DNA of 36,327 bases from a virus. Every line of letters begins with the position of its first letter. Positions within the stretch are counted from its first letter, which is position 1. This document shows positions 4,677-21,912 of this stretch, one piece after another. The notes beneath the pieces were generated by a model. The model had not been told where the DNA came from, made no database searches, and worked only from the letters and a program-made list of their open reading frames with translations. Where the stretch lies: IMG/VR virus record IMGVR_UViG_3300000553_000134, positions 1 to 36,327 of that record, one strand, 5' to 3'. A program made the translations under genes and the position numbers.

Positions 4677-4878
4677 GGATTATTTTCAATTATTTTTCAC
4701 GGGCTCTTTTGAGTCCACACAACATGTTATTAGGCCAGCCGTGATTGGATTTAGCCATTAACGAGGTTCGCAAAATTTCCAATCTTTCGGCGGTTTTTTC
4801 TAAAGTACCAATGCGCGTTACCTTATTGCAAGAAAAATCTCAAATTATTTTCACGGCCCGATTCCGGGTCTTTCCCAC

Positions 4879-4948
4879 AACAGCGGAATTAGACCGAACC
4901 CCGCGCGAGTTATCCGGCACACCGATAATCAAATGCCCAACAACGAAA
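4879..4948. repeat. 70-bp direct repeat, copy 2
   Basis: Partner of 2728-2797. Here the copy is non-coding and lies 20-90 bases upstream of the replication initiator start. The equivalent of the internal ATG is followed by an early TAA after six codons. Confidence 0.95.
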
Positions 4949-4967
4949 AGTAACACCAAGTAACGCA

Positions 4968-5822
4968 ATGTCATACACCAAGCTTTTTGCATCAATCGTC
5001 ACATCGACAATCTGGACTGAGGATGACAAAACTCGAATCGTCTGGATAACCATGCTGGCAATCGCCAACAAGCACGGCGAGATTCAGGCGAGCATCCCCG
5101 GACTGGCTAGAGTTGCCGCCGTTTCGGTCGAGGATTGCGAGAGGGCAATTAATCGGTTCATGTCGCCGGATAAATACAGTCGGACGCCGGATGACGAGGG
5201 TAGGAGGATTGAAAAAATCGAAGGCGGATGGGTGTTGATAAACCACTCGAAATATAGAGCGATGGCCAGCAAAGACGAGGAGAAAACAGCTTCGGCAATT
5301 CGCCAGCAGCGATTCAGGGATCAGAAAAAAAGAAATTCTAGCGTAACGAAAAGTAACGGCGAGGTAACGCCCAGTAACGATGCAGTAACGGAAGATAGGG
5401 ACATAGCAGATACAGATACAGATACAAAAGCAAAGAAGAATACCCCCCTAACCCCCCAAGGGGGAGTGGGGGAGCAGTCAGAATTGATACCTTCGGCAAA
5501 CCCAGATTTCATGCCAATCGGATGGAAGCGACTAACGGAAAGGCAAAGGAAACTGGTCAAAGTTAAATTTAACACGCCGAAAATGATTCAGGTCGGATCA
5601 TGGTTTCGCCGGAAAGAATCCAACCTTTGGAACGTTTCCGAAGCCGCGTCAATCACGGAAATCGACCCTACTACTAACGAGGTAAACGGAATGGGCCGCT
5701 ACTACCTCGCCGACATCGAGCCTGACAAGGACATTCGCCGTCGCGACCTCCAGACGCTCCTCAACAACTGGGGCAGCGAACTCGACCGGGCACGAGCATT
5801 TTGCGGGAAGATGGGATCATGA
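4968..5822 (+). CDS. Replication initiator, lambda O-like
   Basis: A 284-residue protein. The first ~100 residues (MSYTKLFASIVTSTIWTEDD, then ASIPGLARVAAVSVEDCERA and RRIEKIEGGWVLINHSKYR) match the winged-helix N-terminal domain of phage replication proteins that recognise origin iterons. A charged, low-complexity linker (about residues 103-165, with DTDTDTK) separates it from a C-terminal region (PIGWKRLTERQRKLVKVKF) likely to contact the helicase. Five GTAACG repeats lie in the DNA of the linker, as the lambda origin lies inside O. The stop overlaps the helicase start (ATGA at 5819). Two further GTAAC sites just upstream may let the protein repress itself. Confidence 0.75.
   Translation: MSYTKLFASIVTSTIWTEDDKTRIVWITMLAIANKHGEIQASIPGLARVAAVSVEDCERAINRFMSPDKYSRTPDDEGRRIEKIEGGWVLINHSKYRAMASKDEEKTASAIRQQRFRDQKKRNSSVTKSNGEVTPSNDAVTEDRDIADTDTDTKAKKNTPLTPQGGVGEQSELIPSANPDFMPIGWKRLTERQRKLVKVKFNTPKMIQVGSWFRRKESNLWNVSEAASITEIDPTTNEVNGMGRYYLADIEPDKDIRRRDLQTLLNNWGSELDRARAFCGKMGS
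5343..5390 (+). repeat. Phased GTAACG iterons (candidate replication origin)
   Basis: GTAACG occurs at 5343, 5353, 5364, 5374 and 5385: steps of 10, 11, 10 and 11 bases, exactly one DNA turn each, so all sites face the same side. They sit in the linker of the initiator gene. Sites at 4950 (GTAACA) and 4960 (GTAACG), also 10 apart, lie just before the gene. The sequence is seen directly; the origin role is inferred from the lambda model. Confidence 0.6.
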
Positions 5823-7207
5823 GTGACGACGTTAGGTCCATGCCCTACGCTCTCGGGCCGGAAAAGGGGCTGCTGTCCCTGATGCTGGATTGCGATGGTT
5901 ACATTTGCCGCGCAATCGAGTCGGGCATTGTCCCTGAGACATTTTACATGCCCTCGCACTCGACTCTCTACGGGGCATTGTGCGACTGCAACGCCTCGGA
6001 GCGGTCGGTCGAGTTGGTTTCACTCATTCAATACCTGTTAGATAAGAATCTGTTGGATCAGGTAGGGGGGCCCGCTGCGCTGGCCGACATCCTAACCTAC
6101 GCCTGCGGGGCAACCCACCGATGGCCGCAATGGCTGGCCGATGTTAGGGACAAGGCAACGCTTCGCGGGGTGATTAACGCAGGATCAGAGATGATTTCAT
6201 CAGCTTACGACTCGCCGGGGGAGGCTGGCGCGGTATTGGACGCCGCTGAGGCGTCGCTATCGGCCTTGCGCGAGTCTTCCGCTGGTATTGTGGCACAAAC
6301 CGTCAAACAGGCCGTGGCGGCCATTATGGAGCAATTTGGCGATGAGTTGCAAGGGCGTATTCAGGCCGGACTAAAAACCGGGTTTTCCGGCATCGACCAA
6401 AAAACAGGCGGGATGAAGCCGGGTGATATGTTCGTCATTGCCGCCCGCCCGTCGATGGGCAAAACCTCGCTCATGATGAACATCGTCGAAAACATCGTTT
6501 TCGAGCAGGAGCTTCCGGCGTTAGTTTTCTCGTTAGAAATGACGCTGGAGCAGCTTTGTCGCCGAGTGGTTTTCTCTCGGGCAAAATACTCACCAGCCGA
6601 ACTCAATCGGGGAATCCGCCCGGACAAGTCCGACCTCAGAAGAATCCGCGAAAGCGCGGTAAAGCTCGCTTCCGCCAAGATTGAAATTGACGATACTCCG
6701 GGGGTTACAATCTCGTACATCCGTGCCAAGGCCCGACGCATGCGACGCGAAAAAGGCATTTCGCTTATCGCCATCGACTACCTGCAACTTTGCCACAGCA
6801 TAACCAAGCAATCCCAAACAAGCCGAGAGCGTGAAGTTTCCGAAATATCCGCCGGAATCAAGGGCATCGCCAAAGAGTTAGGAATCCCGGTAATTCTGTT
6901 AGCGCAGCTCAATCGCGGGCCGGAGAGTCGAACAGGGAAAGCAATGGGCATCCCGCGACTGTCAGACCTTCGGGAAAGCGGCAGCGTGGAACAGGACGCC
7001 GACATGGTGGGGTTGCTTTATCGGGCATCGTACTACGCGGAGTCCGACCCGGCGGCGAAGCCTGATGACTCAGCGGTCCTTGACCTAGCAAAAAACCGAA
7101 ACGGCGAAACTGGCAAGGTGTATCTAACATTCAACAAGCCCTTGATGAGATTCGAGGATGGCAACGCGCCGGACAAATCGGAGCAGGGCGAGGGAGTGAA
7201 TTTCTAA
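5819..7207 (+). CDS. dnaB: Replicative DNA helicase, DnaB type
   Basis: A 462-residue DnaB-like hexameric helicase. The N-terminal domain begins MSDDVRSMPYALGPEKGLLS. The RecA-like core has Walker A AARPSMGKTS (K215), Walker B-like IAIDYLQLC and a QLNRG segment. Length agrees with DnaB (~450-470). It would unwind the fork at the phage origin after loading by the upstream initiator; the two genes overlap by four bases. Start 5819 is preferred over 5801 because the latter adds only six residues and lies deeper inside the upstream gene. No separate loader or primase is visible. Confidence 0.92.
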   Translation: MSDDVRSMPYALGPEKGLLSLMLDCDGYICRAIESGIVPETFYMPSHSTLYGALCDCNASERSVELVSLIQYLLDKNLLDQVGGPAALADILTYACGATHRWPQWLADVRDKATLRGVINAGSEMISSAYDSPGEAGAVLDAAEASLSALRESSAGIVAQTVKQAVAAIMEQFGDELQGRIQAGLKTGFSGIDQKTGGMKPGDMFVIAARPSMGKTSLMMNIVENIVFEQELPALVFSLEMTLEQLCRRVVFSRAKYSPAELNRGIRPDKSDLRRIRESAVKLASAKIEIDDTPGVTISYIRAKARRMRREKGISLIAIDYLQLCHSITKQSQTSREREVSEISAGIKGIAKELGIPVILLAQLNRGPESRTGKAMGIPRLSDLRESGSVEQDADMVGLLYRASYYAESDPAAKPDDSAVLDLAKNRNGETGKVYLTFNKPLMRFEDGNAPDKSEQGEGVNF

Positions 7208-7218
7208 CTAACGAAACA

Positions 7219-7380
7219 ATGAGCGACGAACTAACAAAACTACTGCATGAAATTGAAGTGATACAAATCATGCGCCGTGAAAATTGGAAAGAGGATGGGC
7301 CGAAAGATCACGACCTTGAAATCAATCACCGGACTCAAATCCAACAGATTTCCGACAAAATCAAATATAAGAAACCATGA
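7219..7380 (+). CDS. Small helical hypothetical protein
   Basis: A 53-residue open frame starting MSDELTKLLHEIEVIQIMRR, eleven bases after the helicase stop with CTAACTAACGAAACA between. It is highly charged and probably helical. The start context matches the other genes of this phage. A 21-codon frame follows immediately, overlapping by ATGA (7377-7442); it is too short to call. No function recognised. Confidence 0.45.
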   Translation: MSDELTKLLHEIEVIQIMRRENWKEDGPKDHDLEINHRTQIQQISDKIKYKKP

Positions 7381-7466
7381 GCAATTACCCAGAAGATGGA
7401 TTCATCGAAGCAAATTATGACAGGATAGGAAAAACTAAATAATAACGATAAAACGCAGGCACCGAC

Positions 7467-7574
7467 ATGAGCGCGATAGAAGCCCCGAAAACCACGCAGG
7501 ACGATGCCGCTCATGGCGGTTGTCCTGCCGTGCCTTGTTCATTTTCTTCATCTTCGGGAGGGAGGCATGAATGA
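7467..7574 (+). CDS. Short leader-like ORF before the methyltransferase
   Basis: A 35-residue frame (MSAIEAPKTTQDDAAHGGCP, then AVPCSFSSSSG) that ends eight bases inside the C5-methyltransferase gene. It contains the PCSxSxS-type segment also seen near the N-termini of the proteins at 3599 and 3906. It could be a translated leader coupling ribosomes to the methyltransferase start, or a remnant of recombination. Evidence for a functional protein is weak. Confidence 0.35.
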   Translation: MSAIEAPKTTQDDAAHGGCPAVPCSFSSSSGGRHE

Positions 7575-8436
7575 GCTGGCACTATTCGCTGGCGCTGGTG
7601 GAGGCATACTCGGCGGCAAGCTGCTCGGATGGAAAACCATCTGCGCCGTCGAGCGAGACGCCTACGCACGGGATGTTCTGGTCGCCCGACAAAACGACGG
7701 ATGCCTCGCACCGTTCCCGGTCTGGGATGACGTATGCACCTTCGACGGGAATCCATGGCGCGGACGTGTTGACGTGGTGTCTGGAGGCTTCCCATGTCAG
7801 GATATCAGCGCCGCAGGGCGCGGTGAAGGAATCAACGGGGATCGAAGCGGCCTCTGGATGGAAATGGCACGAATCATCGGTGAAATACGACCCCGCTTCG
7901 CGTTCGTGGAAAACTCGCCAGTGCTCACTACTCGGGGACTTGGAACCTGCCTCGGAGACTTGGCCTCGCTGGGGTATCATGCGCGATGGGGAGTCGTGGG
8001 AGCTATCCACGCCGGCGCTCCTCACAAGCGAGAACGAATATGGATACTGGCCTACACACCGGACGACGGGACTAGATGGCGGGAGCAACAGCCGCAAGGC
8101 GGCGAAAGCTCGCGGCATGTGGCCGACGCCGAATCAGCGCGACTGGAAAGATACCGGATCGACCCAGGGCAACCGGAAATCTCCGAACCTCGGAACCATG
8201 GTGCATCAGTTCGCAACGCCGCAGGCGAGGGACTATCGGACGGGATCGACCGACCGATGGGAGAACCCGGAACGCTCACGGAATCTGAACGATCAGATTG
8301 GTGGGAAACTGAACCCGAGCTGGGTCGCCTGGCTCATGGGGTGGCCAATCGAGTGGACAGCTTGCGCTGCCTCGGCAACGGACAAGTTCCGGCAGTGGTG
8401 CGCCTCGCATGGAATCTCTTATCTCAAATGAAATAA
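7567..8436 (+). CDS. C5-cytosine DNA methyltransferase
   Basis: From ATG 7567 the product is 289 residues. Ordered motifs of the family are clear: motif I LFAGAGGGI, the acidic VERD (motif II), catalytic motif IV GGFPCQDIS with C77, motif VI ENSP (E115; usually ENV), motif VIII HKRERIW, and motif X RCLGNGQVPAVV near the end. It would methylate C5 of cytosine in a short DNA site, probably protecting phage DNA from host restriction. The region between motifs VIII and X (~170-265) is the target-recognition part. A second frame is open over almost its whole length (7571-8431). Upstream in-frame ATG 7504 adds residues without family support. Confidence 0.9.
   Translation: MNELALFAGAGGGILGGKLLGWKTICAVERDAYARDVLVARQNDGCLAPFPVWDDVCTFDGNPWRGRVDVVSGGFPCQDISAAGRGEGINGDRSGLWMEMARIIGEIRPRFAFVENSPVLTTRGLGTCLGDLASLGYHARWGVVGAIHAGAPHKRERIWILAYTPDDGTRWREQQPQGGESSRHVADAESARLERYRIDPGQPEISEPRNHGASVRNAAGEGLSDGIDRPMGEPGTLTESERSDWWETEPELGRLAHGVANRVDSLRCLGNGQVPAVVRLAWNLLSQMK
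7571..8431 (+). CDS. Overprinted ORF inside the C5-methyltransferase gene
   Basis: A 286-codon frame, shifted +1 relative to the methyltransferase, starting at ATG 7571 (MSWHYSLALVEAYSAASCSD) and ending KFRQWCASHGISYLK. I recall stand-alone annotated phage proteins with the same start and the same conserved points: SWKTRQCSL, SETWPRWGIMRDG, the repeated W/A-P-T/Q-x-x-D-W/Y motif (MWPTPNQRDWK, FATPQARDY), and LNPSWVAWLMGWPIEWT near the end. Its start is the +1 reading of the methyltransferase motif I. It could be a true second gene or a conserved by-product of codon choice. Being open for 286 codons argues against pure chance. Function unknown. Confidence 0.5.
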   Translation: MSWHYSLALVEAYSAASCSDGKPSAPSSETPTHGMFWSPDKTTDASHRSRSGMTYAPSTGIHGADVLTWCLEASHVRISAPQGAVKESTGIEAASGWKWHESSVKYDPASRSWKTRQCSLLGDLEPASETWPRWGIMRDGESWELSTPALLTSENEYGYWPTHRTTGLDGGSNSRKAAKARGMWPTPNQRDWKDTGSTQGNRKSPNLGTMVHQFATPQARDYRTGSTDRWENPERSRNLNDQIGGKLNPSWVAWLMGWPIEWTACAASATDKFRQWCASHGISYLK

Positions 8437-8442
8437 CAAAAT

Positions 8443-9240
8443 ATGACAGCGGAAAAAACAGACGAACGGCGAGAAAAGAAAATTGAACATCGAATCATCA
8501 ATGACCATTTTCAGAACTACAAGCGGCACAACATACCGAAGGCGCAGCTTTTAATTGCTGACATCCCATACAACGTCGGAAAGAATGCTTATGGTTCGAA
8601 CCCGGCATGGTACGTTGATGGGGACAACAAGAACGGCGAAAGCAAGCTGGCGAACTCTGAGTTTTTCGACACCGACAAAGACTTTAGAGTTTCCGAGTTT
8701 CTTCATTTTTGCTCCAAAATGATGAAGCCCGAGGACAAAAAGAAAACCTGCGACGCGCCTTGCATGATCGTCTTTTGCGCTTTCGACCAGCAATGGGATT
8801 TGATAGAGAAAGCCAAGGAGCATGGACTTGTAAATTATATAAACCTGGTTTTCGTTAAAAACTTTTCCGCGCAGGTCCTTAAGGCCAACATGCGCCCGGT
8901 TGGAAATTGCGAGTATGGCTTGATTCTTTATCGGGACAAGTTGCCAAAATTTAACAACAACGGGAAGATGGTATTTAATGCGATGGATTGGCCACGCGAC
9001 AACGAAAGCGAGAAAAGGCACCCAACCCAGAAGCCGATTGTGTTGCTGCAACGACTAATAACCCTTTTCACAGATCCGGGCGAAGTTGTGATTGACCCTG
9101 TGTGCGGCAGCGGATCTACGATCATCGCCGCGTCACGTTGCGGGCGAAGCGGGTACGGATTCGAGATCAAAAAGAATTTCCACAAGTCGGCTAATGAGTG
9201 GTTAGAATTGGAACACCGGCAGATGAAGCTATCAATATGA
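8443..9240 (+). CDS. Beta-class amino DNA methyltransferase (N6A or N4C)
   Basis: A 265-residue methyltransferase. The catalytic motif IV appears as DIPY (residues 40-43, ADIPYNVG), a variant of the usual DPPY. Motif I lies near the C-terminus as VIDPVCGSGST (D218), and HPTQKP (before motif I) is typical. The order IV then I places it in the beta class. It would methylate the exocyclic amino group of adenine or cytosine. The middle (about 90-180) is the likely target-recognition region. It starts six bases after the C5 gene and overlaps the next methyltransferase by ATGA. Confidence 0.85.
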   Translation: MTAEKTDERREKKIEHRIINDHFQNYKRHNIPKAQLLIADIPYNVGKNAYGSNPAWYVDGDNKNGESKLANSEFFDTDKDFRVSEFLHFCSKMMKPEDKKKTCDAPCMIVFCAFDQQWDLIEKAKEHGLVNYINLVFVKNFSAQVLKANMRPVGNCEYGLILYRDKLPKFNNNGKMVFNAMDWPRDNESEKRHPTQKPIVLLQRLITLFTDPGEVVIDPVCGSGSTIIAASRCGRSGYGFEIKKNFHKSANEWLELEHRQMKLSI

Positions 9241-12514: not shown

Positions 12515-14341
12515 ATGGAAAGCTCGCTTCTCCAATACTTCAAATCCGTCCACGACGGGGATATTGTCGATTGGGCGGATGGAAAGCTGAAAATCCCGTA
12601 CTCGACCCAGTACCCTATCTATGTCGCCAGCGTGTCCCCTTGGCTGATAGAACCGCTGCGCTGTCTATCAGATCCGAAAATTTACCGGGTTGATGTTCGA
12701 ATGCCCGCCGGAGCCGCGAAGTCATTGATCGGTGAAATCCTGATTGCTAAGAAATTTTGTGATGAGTCGGGGATGATATACTACGTCTGGCAGGCCGACG
12801 ACGAGGCCGGGGACGCGATGGAAGATCGGATATATCAACTGATCGAATCTAACGACTTTCTTTCAAGGCGCCTTCCGAGGGACCGAAACAAAAAGCGGAC
12901 GCATAAGCTATCCGCGCCCCATGTTACGATTTACGCGGTGGGGGCCAATGAGTCGGCGGCGCAGTCAAAGCGAGTTAACACGCTCATCATGGAAGAGCCG
13001 CATATGTGGAAGCCCGGAATGTACAAGGCGTTTATGGACCGCACAAAAAGCGTAAAAAATCCTCTGATATTGTCTTTGTCCACTGGGTCAATTTTGAATG
13101 ATGAATCCGACAAATCCTATTGTTCGGGATCGTGCGAGGAATGGCAGGTTCCGTGCCCGCATTGCCGCGAATACCAGACGATGACCGATAACCGCGACAG
13201 ACTTCTTGCCACCATTGACGATTCTACGATGGATGAAAATGGAGAATATAACTGGCCGGCGTTAATTCCAACAGTTCGCTACAACTGCGAGCATTGCGGA
13301 ATTGATTGGCCGACAGACAAGGAGTTTCGGCATGAGCAGGCAAAGCAAGGAAGATACAAAGTCACGAACCCGAACGCCCCTTCTAACCACAGAAGCTTTC
13401 ACATGGAGGCAGTTGGCATCTATTACGAAGGATTCGAGCTATCAGAAATCCTAAAGCTGAAACTTGAAGCCGTCCAATCGTACAAATGCGGATCCATTGA
13501 GCCGTTCAAGAATTACATGCAGAAACAGCGGGCTATGGCATGGGATGAATCCCCGTCAAATGACGATGACAAGGCCGCGTTTGACAGGACCAAGGGCAAT
13601 TATGCCAAGGGGGACCCTCATGAGTCGGAGCTTTCCCGATTCCTAACAATTGATAACCAAGCAGGGAAGGCGTCACGAGGTCAAGGTGCGCATCGTTGGT
13701 ACACCTGCCGTTCGTTCGGTCCTACGGAATGCCGACTGATAGACGAGGGGCGAGTTTCGACGTGGGAGGAAATGGAAGAGAAGCGGATTGAGCTTGGAGT
13801 CGAACCACGCCGAACGCTGGTCGATTGCGCGTTTGATACCATCGCCGTGCAAGAGGTATGCGTTAGATACGGCTGGCAGGCGCTATGGGGCGATACGACA
13901 AGCAAAGACTCGTTTCCTCACCATGAAAATGTGATGACTCCCAGCGGACCAATGCAGATAGTTCGCCACCACCCATATTCCCGCCCGCAGGCAGGACATG
14001 TCGGAATCGGAAAAAGCGGAAAGCAGTCGCAGGCGGTCTATTACTTCTGGTGCCAACGGCCTATCAAGGATCAATGGCATCGACTTATGGACGGGATGAC
14101 GACTTACCGTTGGACAGTCCCGCATGACGTGAGCGACGAATACCGAAAGCAAACCCGCGTTGAGTTCAAGAAGCAAATCACAGGCAAGGACGGGAAGAAA
14201 AAGTGGGAATGGTTTTTTCCGAAGGGTTGCGATAATCATCTAACTGACTGCGACCAGATGACGCTTGTGGCGGGATGGATGGACAAAAGAATCAAGATCT
14301 ATCTCGGGGCGATTGAAAACGAACAACAAACTAACGAATGA
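12515..14341 (+). CDS. Terminase large subunit, GpA family
   Basis: A 608-residue packaging ATPase-nuclease of the lambda GpA family (lambda gpA is ~641). The ATPase has a deviant Walker A (MPAGAAKS, K69) and Walker B VNTLIMEEPHM. A zinc knuckle pair typical of GpA follows (CPHCREYQ, later CEHCGIDWP). Nuclease-side acidic motifs include FLTIDNQAGK and LVDCAFDTIAVQEV. It cuts concatemers at the packaging site and pumps DNA through the portal. It begins after CCCTAAC with no Shine-Dalgarno sequence. Relationship to GpA implies cos-type ends, which agrees with a candidate site upstream. Confidence 0.9.
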   Translation: MESSLLQYFKSVHDGDIVDWADGKLKIPYSTQYPIYVASVSPWLIEPLRCLSDPKIYRVDVRMPAGAAKSLIGEILIAKKFCDESGMIYYVWQADDEAGDAMEDRIYQLIESNDFLSRRLPRDRNKKRTHKLSAPHVTIYAVGANESAAQSKRVNTLIMEEPHMWKPGMYKAFMDRTKSVKNPLILSLSTGSILNDESDKSYCSGSCEEWQVPCPHCREYQTMTDNRDRLLATIDDSTMDENGEYNWPALIPTVRYNCEHCGIDWPTDKEFRHEQAKQGRYKVTNPNAPSNHRSFHMEAVGIYYEGFELSEILKLKLEAVQSYKCGSIEPFKNYMQKQRAMAWDESPSNDDDKAAFDRTKGNYAKGDPHESELSRFLTIDNQAGKASRGQGAHRWYTCRSFGPTECRLIDEGRVSTWEEMEEKRIELGVEPRRTLVDCAFDTIAVQEVCVRYGWQALWGDTTSKDSFPHHENVMTPSGPMQIVRHHPYSRPQAGHVGIGKSGKQSQAVYYFWCQRPIKDQWHRLMDGMTTYRWTVPHDVSDEYRKQTRVEFKKQITGKDGKKKWEWFFPKGCDNHLTDCDQMTLVAGWMDKRIKIYLGAIENEQQTNE

Positions 14342-14800: not shown

Positions 14801-15784
14801 CTACCAGACCACCCTCGCGTCAAGAATCGTGTTAGTGGTGTTCGCGTTTGTTAGGACGTTGAACCTAATATATTCATGCAGCTCTGAAAAGCTTGTGTGA
14901 TGTTCTCCCGCGCCAAGTGTTAACGTCCCCTCGCTTGTCTCTCGCCATGTTAGAAGATCGTCGGAATACTCGAAATTTCCAGTGATGGCTTGCGAGGTGT
15001 AAATCCGGTACATGGCCTGCGACCCTCCGACCGGGATATACCCGCAGACGGCCAGCATAAGCGCGGGTAGTGTTTCGGAGGTCCTATCTGGCGCGTTAAA
15101 TGTTAGGGAATTAGACGCGCTCAAAACGCTTGGAGCGAGTGAGAAAAGCGTAATGCCGTCAACTCCCCCGATGGGTACGCGCTTGGAGAAATTCGAGGCG
15201 CTCTCAGTGATGACCCATGCCAACTGTCGCGAACAGGCGATGCGGTCGGTGAGCGTGATTACATCGACCGAAAGCGATCCTATCACAAAAGGATTTGCTA
15301 GAGTTAGGGAGTAGTAGTCAACTCCAATAGTCCCGTCAGCGTTTATTGCATGGCACAAGTGGGCCACGGTATCTGCAATTGTCGCTCCGATCTTAACGTC
15401 ACCGGGCGACGCCATAGTTGATTTGAACCGACACGGCCACAGGTTGCCATAAAGTCCAATTGATAAAGTATCGCCATCCGCCGGGTTCGAGTCCATCCGC
15501 AAATCACCGATTGCTGAAACGCCAGGAGCAATCCCGGTGATGGTTCCTACCGGAGGGGCGCCTGTGATCGCCTGAGTGAGCGAGGAGAAAAGTGAAGCCC
15601 CGCTTTTTTCAACTTTGCCGCTCAGAGTAATGCCTTCGACCGCTGGCGAGCCGGAAACCGTTCCGTAAACTGACACGTAGCCAGTTTCGGATGCGGATGT
15701 TGACCGGATGATAACTTTGCCTGATGTGACAGGCTGGGCTGATAGCGGATTCCCTGACGTTGTCGAAAATGCTTGGTTTGACAT
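14801..15784 (-). CDS. Virion-like beta-rich protein on the opposite strand
   Basis: A 327-residue protein, the largest minus-strand gene. Its composition is rich in S, T, G and V in short beta-strand segments (GKVIIRSTSASETGYVSVYG, then SPAVEGITLSGKVEKSG), like phage tail or decoration proteins. The end (DDLLTWRETSEGTLTLG and HEYIRFNVLT) resembles receptor-binding or carbohydrate-binding sandwich domains. No signal peptide or catalytic motif is visible. It sits against the late-gene direction between terminase and portal, divergent from the gpW-like gene. Its coding strand carries CTAAC five times, like the plus-strand genes, so it shares the genome's bias. Function unknown; a host-interaction moron is possible. 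Confidence 0.6.
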   Translation of the reverse strand: MSNQAFSTTSGNPLSAQPVTSGKVIIRSTSASETGYVSVYGTVSGSPAVEGITLSGKVEKSGASLFSSLTQAITGAPPVGTITGIAPGVSAIGDLRMDSNPADGDTLSIGLYGNLWPCRFKSTMASPGDVKIGATIADTVAHLCHAINADGTIGVDYYSLTLANPFVIGSLSVDVITLTDRIACSRQLAWVITESASNFSKRVPIGGVDGITLFSLAPSVLSASNSLTFNAPDRTSETLPALMLAVCGYIPVGGSQAMYRIYTSQAITGNFEYSDDLLTWRETSEGTLTLGAGEHHTSFSELHEYIRFNVLTNANTTNTILDARVVW

Positions 15785-15878: not shown

Positions 15879-16133
15879 ATGGCAGTTAGACAAGCACTTG
15901 TGGGACTCGAAGCGGCAGATTTGGTCGCGATCAGAGATGCGTGCAAGCAAGCCATTGTTGCCGGGGCTGTGCGGGGTATCAGCTATACCATCGCGGGCAG
16001 GTCGTTCTCGTTCCCGTCGCTAGAATCAGCGCAAAATACTCTCCAGGAGGCTGCTTATGCCTTGGGGCTTCTAACGGGTGCCCGAAGCGAAGTAGTTAGG
16101 CCAAACTTTAACCCCGGTTTTGGCCGCCAATGA
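15879..16133 (+). CDS. gpW-like head-tail joining protein
   Basis: An 84-residue protein between terminase and portal, the place of W in lambda (A-W-B). A helical first half (GLEAADLVAIRDACKQAIVA) is followed by a short hairpin (ISYTIAGRSFSFPSLES) and a second helix, the helix-hairpin-helix pattern of gpW. gpW (68 residues in lambda) closes the portal after packaging. It overlaps the portal start by four bases (ATGA at 16130). Confidence rests on order and pattern. Confidence 0.6.
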   Translation: MAVRQALVGLEAADLVAIRDACKQAIVAGAVRGISYTIAGRSFSFPSLESAQNTLQEAAYALGLLTGARSEVVRPNFNPGFGRQ

Positions 16134-18844
16134 TTCCCGCGTACAAGCCGTCACTTTTGACTCGGGCAGTTGGCCGGGTTTCGCCTTCCGCCGGAATCAA
16201 GCGGATGCAGGCCGAAATCGCCTTGCATAGATACCGATATGAGGGGGCGGAAATGAGCCACAAGCGGGCTTCTGCCCCGCAAAACATGTCGCCTAACGCA
16301 TTCGACGTTCAACGCGACAGGCTACAACTCATGCGGGAGGCGGAAGACTTGGAGCGCAATTTCCCGCCCGCCGCCTACTTGAACCGCAAATACGCACTCT
16401 ACGTCGCTCCTGTCAGTTATCACGCGATGACCGGCGACCACGCTTTAGACGCCGAGATTGAAGAGTACCTTAATCACGAGGTATTTCCTAACTGCGACCA
16501 TACCGGGCGATATGACTTCTTTCGAATGATGGGCTTTGGCGTCATGGGGGCAAATCGTGGAGGGGACTACGGATTCGCCTTTACGCGCCCCGGCAGCAAC
16601 TCGGAAATGAGCGAGGATGAGATTCTTGAACACGATTTAAGGATCCAAGCAATCGAGCCTGACCGAATTGGCGGCGTGTATCAAAATACCGTTAGTAATA
16701 CATACGTCGCCGGGTTGAACATCGGCCCTAACGGTGAAATTGTTTCGTTCAAAATCTTCCACAGGAGCATGACGACGAATTGTTATGACGATCCCGTTGA
16801 TGTTCCAGCAAAGGATTTTGTTCACCTAACAGACCCTCTGCGAATTGATATGTACCGGAGTGTGACGCGCCTCGCTCCGGCCATCAAGGACCTTCGCGAC
16901 CTTTATGAGTCGATGGAGTACGTGATGGGAAAAATGAAGCTCGCGAGCGCGATGACCGTCTTTACGAACTCCAACGGCGCTACGGCCGGTGACGGGGCGT
17001 ATGACCCATATAGAACCGATCTGTCCAGCGGAGCAACCGCGTTCCAACAAGACATTTCCTTCGGGCAAATAAACCACCTTTCGGGCGGTACGGACATTAA
17101 ATTTCCGGCTAGTGCCAGCCCCAGCGATCAAGAGCAATGGCTAATCGTTCAGAAGTTGAAATTCGTCGCGATGGCATACGGCCTGCCGTTCTCATTCGCA
17201 TTCGACGCTGGCGCACTTGGTGGCGTTTCCGCTCGGCTTGAAAGCGAACTCGCTAAGGATGAATTTGAGCGAGGACAGCGGGAAATTATCACGCCCGCCG
17301 CTACCAGAATAAAGAACACGTTCCTAACCGACGCTTGCGCCAAGGGGATTTGGCCCGTCTCGAAACTCCAACAAATTTGCCGGGGCCGATGGGGTTTTCG
17401 CCCCCACCCGCAACCGGACCTCGGTAAAGAGGCGACCGCTGCCGTAACGCTCTACCAGCAGGGCTTGCTAGATCCGATCCAATACTGGACAGAAAACGGA
17501 GGCAATCCCGAAGGCGTGGCCGATAACATGGTCCGGTGGGCAAAAATCAAGCGCGACAAAGCCACCGAGGCAGGGATGGAAGTTGCGGACGTGTTTGGCA
17601 ACGGCCCCACAATGCCCCTCAGCGTGTCGGAATCGAGCACGGATAGCACGACAACAGACAAATCATCCTATGGCGACTCTAAAAAAAAATTAGAGAAACA
17701 TGACTTCAAATCCAAAATTCCGTTTGACGAGTCGGAACACCCACGAGCGGAGAACGGGGAGTTTGGCAGCGGGGGTGCGCAAGCAGGCCGCAGCCAGCGG
17801 GCCAATGTTGGAACACTCCAACACGCGGAGAGGGTCGGAGAAGGAAAGGACGCGACTCTTATGATCAACGGGAAACCAGCTCCCGACTTTATCAAAGCAG
17901 GGATGATTCCTCCCGCTTATTCTCGGAACATTCAAATCGCCACTGATAGAAATTCGGACGTTTGGGCCAAAATGGAAGACGCGAAAGGGAACCCGAAGAC
18001 CGTCTATAACCCTGACTTTTTGAAGCGCAACGAAACGATCAAATGGGCGCGGACAAACGAAGGTGTTGGCAAAGCTGATTCCATTCGCTCGCAAATCCAT
18101 AACGACCGAAACAAAGGCTCGAATAAAGAAGAGGCCGATGCGTCTTGGCTAATGTCACAGCAGGCCACCCGCCCCGGCAGCGATGAAGATACGAAGGGTA
18201 GCAAGGCGCTATGGTCGAAACCAGTTAGCGCAAGCGACTTCGTTTTAACGCCGGATCCGAAAGGGCCGCCCAAGGTTTCTTTGAAAGTTGGTGAGTCTGA
18301 CATTCCCATCCGTGACGAAAAGGCTCGTGCTGAAATCGAGTCCCGCATTTCCAACGGTCGGCCAATGGGAGATGCTGGATACTGGCTCAAGTCTCACGGC
18401 GCGACAACGCTGGAAGGTCGGCACGTCGTTCAAAATCCCGATGGCAGCGCCAGCCTGCAATTTATGGGCAAGGAGGGCGTTTGGCATAATCACAAGATTG
18501 GAGACGCCAACCTATCGAAGATGCTGCTTGATAGAAAAGCGGCGAGCGGAGACACCGGCAAGTTATTCGATACCGACTACAACAAGGTTTCCAAATACGT
18601 CGGCGGTTTGGGCGGTGGCGGATTCTCCCCGAAAGACCTCCGCACGATCCGCGCCAACGAGCTTGCCCAAAAGGAAATCGGAAACAAACCGATAGAAGTT
18701 GGAAGCGAAAAGGAGCGCATGGAACTTATCAAGGGCATCGCAGAAAAGGTTTCAAGCGTGCTGGGAAATCGGCCGGCACAAGCTCTAACGAGCTACATCA
18801 ATCCGATGATTTTCAATGCAATCAAAGTGAGGCAATCAGCATGA
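16130..18844 (+). CDS. Portal protein fused to a type IB topoisomerase-like domain
   Basis: A 904-residue protein. Residues 1-~500 are a lambda-like portal (gpB, ~530 residues): SPSAGIKRMQAEIALHRY, a KIFHRSM segment, and FDAGALGGVSARLESELAKD. This is the dodecameric channel for DNA entry and exit. Residues ~500-560 are low-complexity and include FDESEHPRAENGEFGSGG, a linker motif I recall from phage head proteins. From ~600 the sequence follows type IB topoisomerases: PPAYSRNIQIATD, AKGNPKTVYNPDF, KWARTN, then ATTLEGRHVV (R764), FMGKEGVWHNH (K781), SPKDLRTIRANELA (R838), LGNRPA (N880) and TSYINP (Y889). All five catalytic positions are occupied. A run of nine A's (17681-17689) marks the joint. 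Confidence 0.85.
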   Translation: MIPAYKPSLLTRAVGRVSPSAGIKRMQAEIALHRYRYEGAEMSHKRASAPQNMSPNAFDVQRDRLQLMREAEDLERNFPPAAYLNRKYALYVAPVSYHAMTGDHALDAEIEEYLNHEVFPNCDHTGRYDFFRMMGFGVMGANRGGDYGFAFTRPGSNSEMSEDEILEHDLRIQAIEPDRIGGVYQNTVSNTYVAGLNIGPNGEIVSFKIFHRSMTTNCYDDPVDVPAKDFVHLTDPLRIDMYRSVTRLAPAIKDLRDLYESMEYVMGKMKLASAMTVFTNSNGATAGDGAYDPYRTDLSSGATAFQQDISFGQINHLSGGTDIKFPASASPSDQEQWLIVQKLKFVAMAYGLPFSFAFDAGALGGVSARLESELAKDEFERGQREIITPAATRIKNTFLTDACAKGIWPVSKLQQICRGRWGFRPHPQPDLGKEATAAVTLYQQGLLDPIQYWTENGGNPEGVADNMVRWAKIKRDKATEAGMEVADVFGNGPTMPLSVSESSTDSTTTDKSSYGDSKKKLEKHDFKSKIPFDESEHPRAENGEFGSGGAQAGRSQRANVGTLQHAERVGEGKDATLMINGKPAPDFIKAGMIPPAYSRNIQIATDRNSDVWAKMEDAKGNPKTVYNPDFLKRNETIKWARTNEGVGKADSIRSQIHNDRNKGSNKEEADASWLMSQQATRPGSDEDTKGSKALWSKPVSASDFVLTPDPKGPPKVSLKVGESDIPIRDEKARAEIESRISNGRPMGDAGYWLKSHGATTLEGRHVVQNPDGSASLQFMGKEGVWHNHKIGDANLSKMLLDRKAASGDTGKLFDTDYNKVSKYVGGLGGGGFSPKDLRTIRANELAQKEIGNKPIEVGSEKERMELIKGIAEKVSSVLGNRPAQALTSYINPMIFNAIKVRQSA

Positions 18845-19497
18845 AACTAGCAAATTCACCAGTTGATGTTAGCTTCGGCGAGCATGACGAACCGGATTGG
18901 AAATCCAATTCTCCAGTTCCTACCTCGCACGATGAAGACGCGGACAGCGAAGACGCCACCGACGAAGAGACGGATTACACCGCGTCAATTCTCGGATTTG
19001 ACCCTAAGGAACTTTTCAAGCCGCAAGGCCAAGGCAAGAAGTTCTCTCTCCACCAATACCGCGAGGCCGATTCGAGCATCAACGACAAGCTAGCCAAAGA
19101 GCGCGGCAACGTAGATTTTGCTGAGGGATGGATTGACGACGTTCGGGCCGATATTGCCGACGCTGAAAAATCAGGAGACGCGGAGGGACTTCAAAAATCA
19201 CGAATAGAACTCGACAAGGCTAACTCATATCTGAGCGATCACAAGGCAGCTTTGGAGCAACTACAGGGACGCCGCGACAGGCGCGACACGGTGAAGCCAC
19301 AGAAGCCGGAAGAGGCCAAGGTGGACCGCGTGGCGAAGGCCAAGCTTCGCGACGATAGGCACGCACTGGTGCAAGCTCTAATCGCTTCGGGACGGCCTGA
19401 TAACGAGGCTTACGCAATCGCCTACAAAGTAACCCAGGAGGGCAAATTCGACAAATCGAAGCTGCCCGAAGACATCCGAGAAAAATATTACCAATGA
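18841..19497 (+). CDS. Hypothetical head-region protein, acidic and coiled-coil
   Basis: A 218-residue protein starting at the ATGA overlap with the portal-topoisomerase gene and ending in another overlap with the protease (19494). The first 50 residues are very acidic (DEDADSEDATDEETDY). Residues ~70-150 are charged and helical (DVRADIADAEKSGDAEGLQK), and the end is a short helical unit (ALVQALIASGRPDNEAYAIA) with KLPEDIREKYYQ. This composition suits a scaffold or internal head protein. Being locked between portal and protease supports a head assembly role, possibly as partner of the topoisomerase domain; that is inference. Confidence 0.55.
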   Translation: MKLANSPVDVSFGEHDEPDWKSNSPVPTSHDEDADSEDATDEETDYTASILGFDPKELFKPQGQGKKFSLHQYREADSSINDKLAKERGNVDFAEGWIDDVRADIADAEKSGDAEGLQKSRIELDKANSYLSDHKAALEQLQGRRDRRDTVKPQKPEEAKVDRVAKAKLRDDRHALVQALIASGRPDNEAYAIAYKVTQEGKFDKSKLPEDIREKYYQ

Positions 19498-20522
19498 AGC
19501 ACTACGCCACCAAGTTAGGAACCCCTCGAGTTGAAGAATCGACCGACACGATCTATGGCGTTTCCCTCATTTCGTTAGGAAATGCGGAAGGTCACTTTGA
19601 CAAAAAAGGGCGTCAGGAAGTCGTTGATGAAGTGACATTGCAGCAGGTGTTCAAATACTGCGTCGGGGCGAAAACCGTAAAGATAAAGGCCAATCACAAC
19701 GGCCAGGTCGAGGAAGTAATCGGCTGGTGCGACAACTTCTCGCTGCAAGCCGAAAAGGTCATTGCCGACGCGCACTTTTACGACACAGAACCCCTCCGAC
19801 TCAAGCTGTACGCAATCGCCAAGAAGAACCCTGACCATATCGCAATCTCGCTAGAGTTCACGGGCGAAGATAAGGCGAGGGGCGAAATTTCACTTTCCCG
19901 CTGCGAACAAGTAGTTGCGGCGTCGTTCGTCTCCGAAGGCGCGGCGAACAAATCACTTTTTTCGGCCAATCCGCCGGAAGATGAAAAAGACAACACTAAC
20001 AAAACAACCACCAAAATGGAAGATAAAGACAAGACGGCGGATGAAGAAACCGCCCTAACGAAGTTGCAAAAACAATTCGACGAGTACAAGAAAAAGTACG
20101 GTCCCGAAGATGACGAACCCGATGGCGACGAAGGCAAGGGAGAGCCCGGCGATGAAGACGGCGACGAGGCCAAAAAGCTGAAGGCCAAAAAGCTGGAGGT
20201 TGCCGACGATCCTGAAAAGCAACCCAAAGGCAGCGACCCTGAAAAGACCTATTCCAAGAAGGACTTGGAATCCGCTATTTCTGCCGCCGCAAACTCCGCC
20301 GTGAAGAAATTCGCCGCAACAATTGGAGTTACCAAGCTGTCACCCGGCGGAAACGCTGGCGAGGTGGCCAAGGAAAAGTCGTGGGATCAAATCGTCGATG
20401 CGGAAAAAGCCAACCACAAAGGCGACCGCAACTTGGCGATGGCTCACTGCCTTTCTCGCCTCGCCTCCGAACCTGAATGGCGCAAAGCATATTCATCTAG
20501 CCGCCTCGTAAAACACAGCTAA
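19494..20522 (+). CDS. Prohead protease fused to scaffold
   Basis: A 342-residue protein. Residues 1-~155 fit the herpesvirus-like serine protease fold of phage prohead proteases: KIKANHNGQ (H68), DHIAISLEF (S119 as nucleophile, H115 adjacent) and VVAASFVSEGAANKSLF at the end, a typical terminal motif. The rest is a charged linker (KTADEETALTKLQKQFDEYK, acidic GDEGKGEPGDEDGDE) and a C-terminal helix, as in protease-scaffold fusions. It would cleave scaffold and head protein termini during maturation, and might also cut the linker of the portal fusion. It lies directly before decoration and major capsid genes. Confidence 0.8.
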   Translation: MKHYATKLGTPRVEESTDTIYGVSLISLGNAEGHFDKKGRQEVVDEVTLQQVFKYCVGAKTVKIKANHNGQVEEVIGWCDNFSLQAEKVIADAHFYDTEPLRLKLYAIAKKNPDHIAISLEFTGEDKARGEISLSRCEQVVAASFVSEGAANKSLFSANPPEDEKDNTNKTTTKMEDKDKTADEETALTKLQKQFDEYKKKYGPEDDEPDGDEGKGEPGDEDGDEAKKLKAKKLEVADDPEKQPKGSDPEKTYSKKDLESAISAAANSAVKKFAATIGVTKLSPGGNAGEVAKEKSWDQIVDAEKANHKGDRNLAMAHCLSRLASEPEWRKAYSSSRLVKHS

Positions 20523-20940: not shown

Positions 20941-21912
20941 ATGCCTTACACTAACGCAAGCGCAACCCCCCGCAGTGACATCTACGCCCTAGTCATGCAG
21001 TCAAATCAAGACTGGAACAAGGTATTTATCGGCGACAAGGTCCTACCTATTAAGGGAGAGGAAGTGAAGCGCGGCATCTACATGAAGGCGAATATGGCCA
21101 ATGCGCAGCTCATGAACGGTGATGCTAAGCCTCGCGAAAGCGGAGCTTCCTATCAGCGCATCAACCGCTCGTATGATACCGATTTGTTCGACGCGCAAGA
21201 ATACGGCCTCGAATCCGTAATTGATGATGCCTACGAATCCGAAGTTGAACGGTTCATGAACCTCGAAGCAACGGAGGCCATGCTACTTGAGCGCAACCTT
21301 CGAATCGCGTATGAAATCCGCGTTGCCGCAGCTGTGATGAATGCAACCACATTCACCGCCACCGACCCGAAGGTGAATTACACCGAGACGCTGCTTTCCA
21401 CGCAGAACCTACCCGCCGATGTTGCCGCTGCGAAAGAGCGCATGTTGCTGCAAGGCGTGTTGCCCAACAGCATAATTATGAGTCAAACACTGTTTAACAT
21501 GGTGCGCCGTTCGACGCTCATGCAAAACCAAGTGTTCGGCGTGGTGCCTCGCAATGCTGGCCAGAATCGCCAACCCGGCGCGGAAGATATCGCTCGCGCC
21601 CTTGACGTTGATAATCTATATGTCGCCGCCGCCGCTAAGAATAACAATGCGGAAGGGCAAACCCATTCCGGAGCGTTTATCTGGGGAAACATATATATTG
21701 CCGTCTGCCACATCGCTGGCGGTGAATACCAGGCGGGCGGCATCGGCCGCACGATCCAGTGGACCAAGGACACGACCGGACTCTTCACTCCTGAGACTTA
21801 TCGTGACGACCGCATTCGTTCTAACGTCATGCGTGTTCGACAGCACACCGCTGAGAAAATCGTTGACTCGACGGCTTGCCAGCTCATTAAAACCAATTAC
21901 AGCGCCAGCTAA
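20941..21912 (+). CDS. Major capsid protein
   Basis: A 323-residue protein expected to adopt the HK97/lambda gpE fold. Features include an N-terminal extension, EVKRGIYMKANMANAQLMNG, then SYQRINRSYDTDLFDAQEYG, an E-loop-like region, and a long spine segment (DVAAAKERMLLQGVLPNSII). The end (QHTAEKIVDSTACQLIKTNY) is typical of the P domain closing strands in capsid proteins from related phages. It is the main structural product and follows decoration protein and protease, the standard order. A strong hairpin (21926-21951) follows the stop, perhaps shielding or stabilising the mRNA. Confidence 0.8.
   Translation: MPYTNASATPRSDIYALVMQSNQDWNKVFIGDKVLPIKGEEVKRGIYMKANMANAQLMNGDAKPRESGASYQRINRSYDTDLFDAQEYGLESVIDDAYESEVERFMNLEATEAMLLERNLRIAYEIRVAAAVMNATTFTATDPKVNYTETLLSTQNLPADVAAAKERMLLQGVLPNSIIMSQTLFNMVRRSTLMQNQVFGVVPRNAGQNRQPGAEDIARALDVDNLYVAAAAKNNNAEGQTHSGAFIWGNIYIAVCHIAGGEYQAGGIGRTIQWTKDTTGLFTPETYRDDRIRSNVMRVRQHTAEKIVDSTACQLIKTNYSAS

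Follow-up and report, generated by a model that had tools for sequence, protein, structure and literature searches.

A predicted type IB topoisomerase fused to phage portal proteins and encoded together with a small acidic partner

The linear IMG/VR virus record IMGVR_UViG_3300000553_000134, analyzed here over its full 36,327 bases (the window), carries within its head gene cluster a portal gene of the lambda family whose reading frame continues into what profile matches and a structural model predict to be a complete bacterial-type type IB topoisomerase (TopIB), in both fold and active site. The fused open reading frame (ORF) runs through 904 codons without a break, lies between the genes for the terminase large subunit and the major head protein, and is followed by a gene for a small acidic protein. 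Both parts of the fusion score above the curated Pfam cut-offs: the portal part matches PF05136 with an E-value of 2.4e-28 (99.7 bits, cut-off 32.9), which bears out the lambda-like portal of ~500 residues described in the original prediction, made from the letters of this DNA alone, and the C-terminal part matches PF01028, the TopIB catalytic core, with 35.4 bits (cut-off 23.7). The same architecture, with the frame likewise open, is present on the independent contigs L002, L003, L005/L008, L018 (with its group of six contigs) and L006/L007. The original prediction had itself raised a sequencing error that joined two genes; such an error, or a misassembly, is ruled out by the identical open frame on these contigs.

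Several lines of evidence suggest that the C-terminal part is a full TopIB. First, a profile of the tail matches the TopIB of Deinococcus radiodurans (PDB 2f4q) with E 2.4e-16, including its N-terminal domain, which phmmer also matches, and it matches the vaccinia and variola enzymes with E below 1e-3. PF21338 lies above its cut-off in relatives and is not listed for the window protein. Second, an AlphaFold2 model of amino acids (aa) 561-904 built with 40 related sequences reached a predicted local distance difference test score of 93.7 and a predicted template modelling score of 0.85, superseding a run on 7 rows in which the former was 68.7. Foldseek places this model on 2f4q with E 1.3e-10, and VIA-align places it on 3igc with Z 18.4 and a root-mean-square deviation of 3.6 over 266 residues. 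The fold is common to TopIBs and tyrosine recombinases, and Xer, Cre and integrases are matched at Z 10-12.7, as would suit an enzyme that resembles a tyrosine recombinase or telomere resolvase and acts on the ends of the packaged genome, in cos processing or circularization. We regard this as very improbable: all full TopIB structures listed (Z 13.5-18.4) rank above every tyrosine recombinase (best XerH, Z 12.7), the N-terminal domain specific to TopIBs is present, and the domain is optional in siblings with matching head genes. Fold and domain plan are not nearer to recombinases than to TopIBs.

The third line of evidence is the active site. Residues were counted in a census of 44 distinct TopIBs, most of them recovered with the pattern RPGSxxDTK, and in 26 TopIBs located only via the neighboring acidic gene, which form the unbiased set. 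Four of the five catalytic residues named in the original prediction (K781, R838, N880 and Y889) hold, and the fifth does not. R764, proposed there as the first catalytic arginine, is ruled out by alignment and by its variability (29/43 in the census, 17/26 in the unbiased set); it is part of the TLxxRHV strand, and its place is taken by R681, whose context ATRPGSDED aligns with IRVGNEEYA of cellular TopIBs. R681 is found in 44/44 census sequences, a count partly forced by the search pattern, and R681, K781, R838, N880 and Y889 are each present in 26/26 of the unbiased set. This invariance, which extends to the nucleophilic tyrosine, argues against the TopIB fold serving in the virion as a non-catalytic DNA-binding clamp, a reading to which we give scarcely any credence even though anchoring DNA at the portal would presumably need just binding. 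The TopIB part of the fusion retains 60-76% protein identity across relatives and its synonymous sites are near saturation, so that pairwise ratios of nonsynonymous to synonymous rates (dN/dS) are mostly undefined. In closer pairs the TopIB dN is 0.12-0.21, below the portal dN of those pairs, and in most pairs it is at or below that of the portal. The low dN taken with the near-saturated synonymous sites argues that the domain is under purifying selection. Window-type TopIBs have in addition an insertion between R681 and the next motif, which is present in the closest relatives and missing from almost all other TopIBs.

Table 1. Features of the window around the portal-TopIB gene (partner-first, TopIBs located via the acidic gene)
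Feature	Position	Strand	Basis
Portal-TopIB fusion ORF, 904 aa	16130..18844	+	single open frame; PF05136 and PF01028 both above cut-off
Portal core, aa 1-510, lambda family	16130..17659	+	PF05136 aa 49-354; phrog_21 portal aa 6-514
HPR linker PFDESEHPRAENGEFGSGG, aa 531-549	17720..17776	+	motif [FW]xExxHPRx(2-8)GxF
Predicted TopIB N-terminal domain, about aa 561-660	17810..18109	+	2f4q N-domain match; model aligns with variola TopIB from residue 1
Predicted TopIB catalytic domain, about aa 661-904	18110..18841	+	PF01028 aa 755-883; AlphaFold2 model, best Z 18.4 to TopIB structures
R681, first catalytic Arg	18170..18172	+	alignment with cellular TopIB IRVGN
Insertion of about 64 aa (690-753), window-type TopIBs	18197..18388	+	alignment of relatives
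K781, catalytic Lys	18470..18472	+	43/43 census, 26/26 partner-first
R838, second catalytic Arg	18641..18643	+	43/43 census, 26/26 partner-first
N880, catalytic Asn (His in vaccinia)	18767..18769	+	42/42 census, 26/26 partner-first
Y889, nucleophile	18794..18796	+	41/41 census, 26/26 partner-first
Acidic partner, aa 1-63 of ORF 18841-19497	18841..19029	+	ATGA overlap with the TopIB stop codon
Displaced native portal tail, aa 64-217 of ORF 18841-19497	19030..19497	+	identity to sibling portals
Conserved ORF after portal region, unclassified	19494..20522	+	similar ORF follows portal in siblings
Terminase large subunit	12515..14341	+	phrog_15, E 5e-26
Major head protein	20941..21912	+	phrog_1005, E 1.7e-21
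A9 run	17681..17689	+	longest mononucleotide run in window

The original prediction of a complete TopIB-like domain on a portal had named structural comparison and a search for like fusions as its checks. The profile, PF01028 and the model, which matches TopIBs best, agree with it, and the fusion recurs on portals of three families. Viral contigs searched with RPGSxxDTK yielded about 40 further TopIB loci, and TopIB stands C-terminal to a portal in 23 of the 44 distinct TopIBs. These comprise 8 portals of the lambda family (PF05136), 14 of the Phage_portal_3 family (PF06381) and one of the Mu family (PF06074), portals without a Pfam scan having been assigned by BLASTP to scanned ones; for the portal of L006, PF05136 falls below the cut-off and phrog_21 portal matches with 1.4e-15. 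In three of the fused portals an InPase domain lies between portal and TopIB, and the loci found from the acidic gene include additional portal fusions. TopIB is also fused to MuF-like minor head proteins (MuF match above the cut-off in L142, weak in L075) and to a DUF2213 protein (L137), and it follows an ADP-ribosyltransferase domain (PF03496) in L131:12426-14285. The nine TopIBs without portal fusion that were examined all lie near a head gene, which is the portal gene in L120, L084, L118, L095, L091, L099 and L094 and the gene for a head protease or for the major capsid protein in L106 and L103. The MuF-TopIB protein of L142 (7753-10770, minus strand) also has a probable intein (PF14890 below cut-off), and a near-identical L018-type fusion protein occurs in six contigs from different metagenome data sets (L018, L017, L020, L023, L025 and L026).

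Relatedness in the portal and relatedness in TopIB do not run in parallel. L002 and L018 are 78% identical in the portal and 62% in TopIB, whereas L002 and L006 are 26% identical in the portal and 66% in TopIB. More generally, the L006 portal is 26-29% identical to other fusion portals and its TopIB 61-66% identical to theirs, and in the TopIB tree L006 falls within the clade of the window (100/99). These comparisons argue that TopIB tails are exchanged between unrelated portals. No portal-TopIB fusion was found in 50,697 deposited phage genomes with the window TopIB, the window portal and the L079 TopIB as queries. In cultured phages the TopIB queries matched only a stand-alone TopIB in Bacteroides phage BS162P1, and the whole fusion protein as query matched nothing. 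So far, only uncultured phages seem to have this architecture; genome contigs scanned with TopIB and portal alignments gave no relative, but the peptide patterns were narrow and may have missed prophage carriers.

The acidic protein encoded after TopIB has about 50-65 aa and the consensus LPDVxFG...DWRK...D-D-DDEEL.TPxDVVxxLGFDPxE, and its start codon overlaps the TopIB stop codon (ATGA) in all window-type loci. It accompanies TopIB in 36 of the 41 loci with sequence available, directly after it in 32, slightly further away in one and fused to it in three, and it is absent after 22/22 TopIB-less sibling portals. The association also holds when the acidic protein is the starting point. The pattern LGFDPxELF led to L071, a phage contig of 143,854 bp with a stand-alone TopIB just upstream, and the pattern DVVxxLGFDP returned 31 new acidic elements, 26 of which have TopIB directly upstream (E below 1e-85); among the other five, three have a deleted TopIB core, one is cut by the contig end and one is without TopIB. 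As read from these gene neighborhoods, the acidic protein is an undescribed and nearly constant companion of phage TopIB, which is the strongest new result of the analysis, and it is a candidate natural inhibitor or regulator of the enzyme. In L080 an HNH homing endonuclease-like ORF (7362-7900) separates the TopIB end from the acidic gene, and the C-terminal codons of TopIB are repeated after it.

Related phages with and without these genes can be compared directly. A scan with the portal only returned 41 contigs, 22 of which have a complete portal end and no TopIB; most of these 22 portals end in a coiled-coil-like stretch and a KLPxxIxxKYYP tail, and PF01028 was found nowhere on any of the 18 TopIB-less sibling contigs searched. 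L002 and L035 are collinear, with 95.0% identity over 3,257 bp and 91.0% over 2,455 bp on the flanks of the TopIB cassette, and an extra block of 1,349 bp, present only in L002, runs from the last codons of the portal to the ATG of the next gene. The cassette is, on this comparison, optional, and appears to be gained and lost by phages. The ends of the cassette have neither direct nor inverted repeats in L002 and one chance-like pair of 79% identity in the window; accordingly, nothing points to transposition. In L126 and L152 a portal-like protein, the linker, the first TopIB residues and the acidic element are kept and the TopIB core is gone. L126 and L152 (ORF of 696 aa) represent a natural in-frame loss of the core that joins the first TopIB residues directly to the acidic element.

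The TopIB-less siblings bear on the possibility that a portal-bound TopIB acts as a tethered swivel, removing twist while the head is being filled with DNA or emptied of it. Such a role would suit the covalent attachment to the protein of the DNA channel seen in 23/44 distinct TopIBs, and TopIBs require no ATP, which suits work in a capsid. However, siblings with a matching portal lack TopIB there and, in the 18 contigs searched, anywhere else, and packaging therefore seems not to need it; moreover, a portal fusion is lacking in about half of the TopIBs. One group also reports that packaging motors revolve DNA, with no rotation or torque (PMC4060578). We consider the swivel unlikely, and torsion release during packaging, as first suggested for this protein, is less supported in view of the siblings and of that report. 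The near-identical phages with and without TopIB (L002 and L035) provide a handle on whether DNA twist matters at portal passage.

In the window the cassette is placed, to judge from sibling portals, inside the portal gene. The displaced tail comprises a coiled-coil-like stretch and DRHAL...KLPxxIREKY and shares 53-57% identity with aa 505-666 in the portals of the closest siblings that lack TopIB; the native tail of the portal is thus now fused behind the acidic protein. In L002, L005 and L018, unlike in the window, the cassette is placed after the portal tail. These differing positions point to repeated insertion or to a rearrangement. Binding between TopIB and the acidic protein could keep the tail on the window portal, should that tail be required.

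Portal and TopIB are joined by a linker with the motif [FW]xExxHPRx(2-8)GxF, which precedes TopIB and other cargo modules in 41 instances, with Glu at position -3 in 40. Four such motifs follow one another in the L091 protein (4778-8572), which has 1,265 aa, lies in a head gene cluster and combines several modules linked in this way, including a NUDIX-like one and TopIB. The HPR motif could serve for cleavage, for docking or as a flexible joint, and through it a class of head-anchored cargo may be recognized and mined for other enzymes. The T4 prohead protease prefers hydrophobic-x-E. The resemblance of the HPR motif to this preference is only a lead, and no protease was identified for the window. 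The original prediction placed a prohead protease two genes downstream; scans of Pfam, PHROGs and NCBIfam gave nothing credible for the conserved ORF after the portal region.

Given that the cassette occurs on several unrelated head proteins, a topoisomerase is probably present within the particles of such phages. We propose, at a probability of roughly 0.5, that TopIB is virion cargo anchored to the portal and acting on phage DNA at about the time of ejection and entry. Portals are dodecameric, with the C-terminal side usually towards the capsid interior, and a C-terminal fusion would place up to 12 copies of TopIB at the capsid-side end of the DNA channel. The HPR linker and TopIB, followed by the ATGA-coupled acidic protein, would form a portable two-gene cassette in which the acidic protein binds TopIB and keeps it inactive or correctly placed through head assembly and packaging. 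At ejection TopIB, possibly set free at the HPR linker, would relax phage DNA that is passing out through the portal or has already arrived. We infer the capsid location, the enzymatic activity, the role of the acidic partner, the timing and any cleavage of the linker. Several points weigh against this proposal. Portal-TopIB proteins are known here from sequences and predicted structures, and the orientation of the C-terminus towards the capsid interior is taken from portals generally and not from this family. The acidic element kept in L126 and L152 without the TopIB core suggests that the partner may function without TopIB. Finally, we know of no portal that is injected, and action in the cell therefore needs release or would be of short range.

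The idea that the enzyme is delivered with DNA, offered as an alternative in the original prediction, gains support from the one linker class that joins TopIB to portals as well as to further head proteins and from the company of InPase, NUDIX and ADP-ribosyltransferase domains. Such delivery fits this company: for InPase-portal fusions, among other effectors fused to portal or MuF proteins, injection as cargo has been proposed (PMC5512222). A delivered TopIB might also nick or relax host DNA or block a host defence instead of serving phage DNA. The linkers and polypeptides that it has in common with domains of the polyvalent-protein type would agree with such an anti-host effector, and its modular exchange and patchy presence resemble those of accessory cargo; the complete active site, however, predicts an ordinary religating enzyme, and the acidic partner in the TopIB operon gives no sign of an immunity function. 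We find an attack on the host quite improbable. Our proposal of portal-anchored cargo may be extended, tentatively and with more doubt than confidence, to a dedicated virion topology module in several tailed-phage lineages, in which a portal-docked TopIB under the control of its acidic partner untwists the genome at ejection or entry, the cassette moves among unrelated portals, and the split portal of the window is held together through the contact between TopIB and the acidic protein.

The predicted enzyme shares with the TopIB of D. radiodurans (PDB 2f4q/3m4a; PF21338 + PF01028) the two-domain plan, the order Arg-Lys-Arg-Asn-Tyr and the predicted fold, and the phage TopIB of L113 is about 30-35% identical to cellular TopIBs over most of its length. 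Unlike bacterial TopIBs, the phage TopIBs of the present set are fused to or lie beside head-protein genes, are followed by the acidic partner gene and have RPGSxxDTK around the first Arg, with the 64-aa insertion in the window type. The TopIB of poxviruses (vaccinia and variola), which is carried in the virion, is of equal enzyme class and provides the best structural match (3igc); unlike the window TopIB it is joined to no structural protein, has His for the catalytic Asn and belongs to an unrelated virus and host. The cassette resembles polyvalent-protein cargo in the fusion of an effector to portal or MuF, in modular exchange and in the co-occurrence of InPase; published examples are InPase on the BcepF1 portal and PBECR and 2H on MuF or portal, and a topoisomerase appears in that work only in a reference title (PMC5512222). 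Stand-alone TopIBs are likewise encoded by phages, as in top1E of BS162P1 and the Motura/RSL1-type enzyme (PMC7824862). The BS162P1 TopIB differs from that of the window in being a 254-aa ORF without most of the N-terminal domain (IPPA region) and with hypothetical neighbors, and no portal fusion was seen there. Portal-anchored enzymes were known already, whereas a TopIB in this role, its acidic partner and the exchange of both over three portal families were not found in the literature searched. Nor was a description of a portal-TopIB fusion found in that literature, in line with the original prediction, whose author knew of no described portal of this kind. To our knowledge, an acidic partner gene of the present kind has not been described in polyvalent-protein work.

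Two minor features of the window are recorded here. The A9 run lies exactly between the portal core and TopIB, and with a one-base slip at this run the product would be a portal of 520 or 524 aa that lacks TopIB; the run is absent from relatives and is thus possibly due to chance. Between the terminase and portal genes, an ORF of 327 aa on the minus strand (14801-15784), which has no PHROG match, has a counterpart at the equivalent place in L002.

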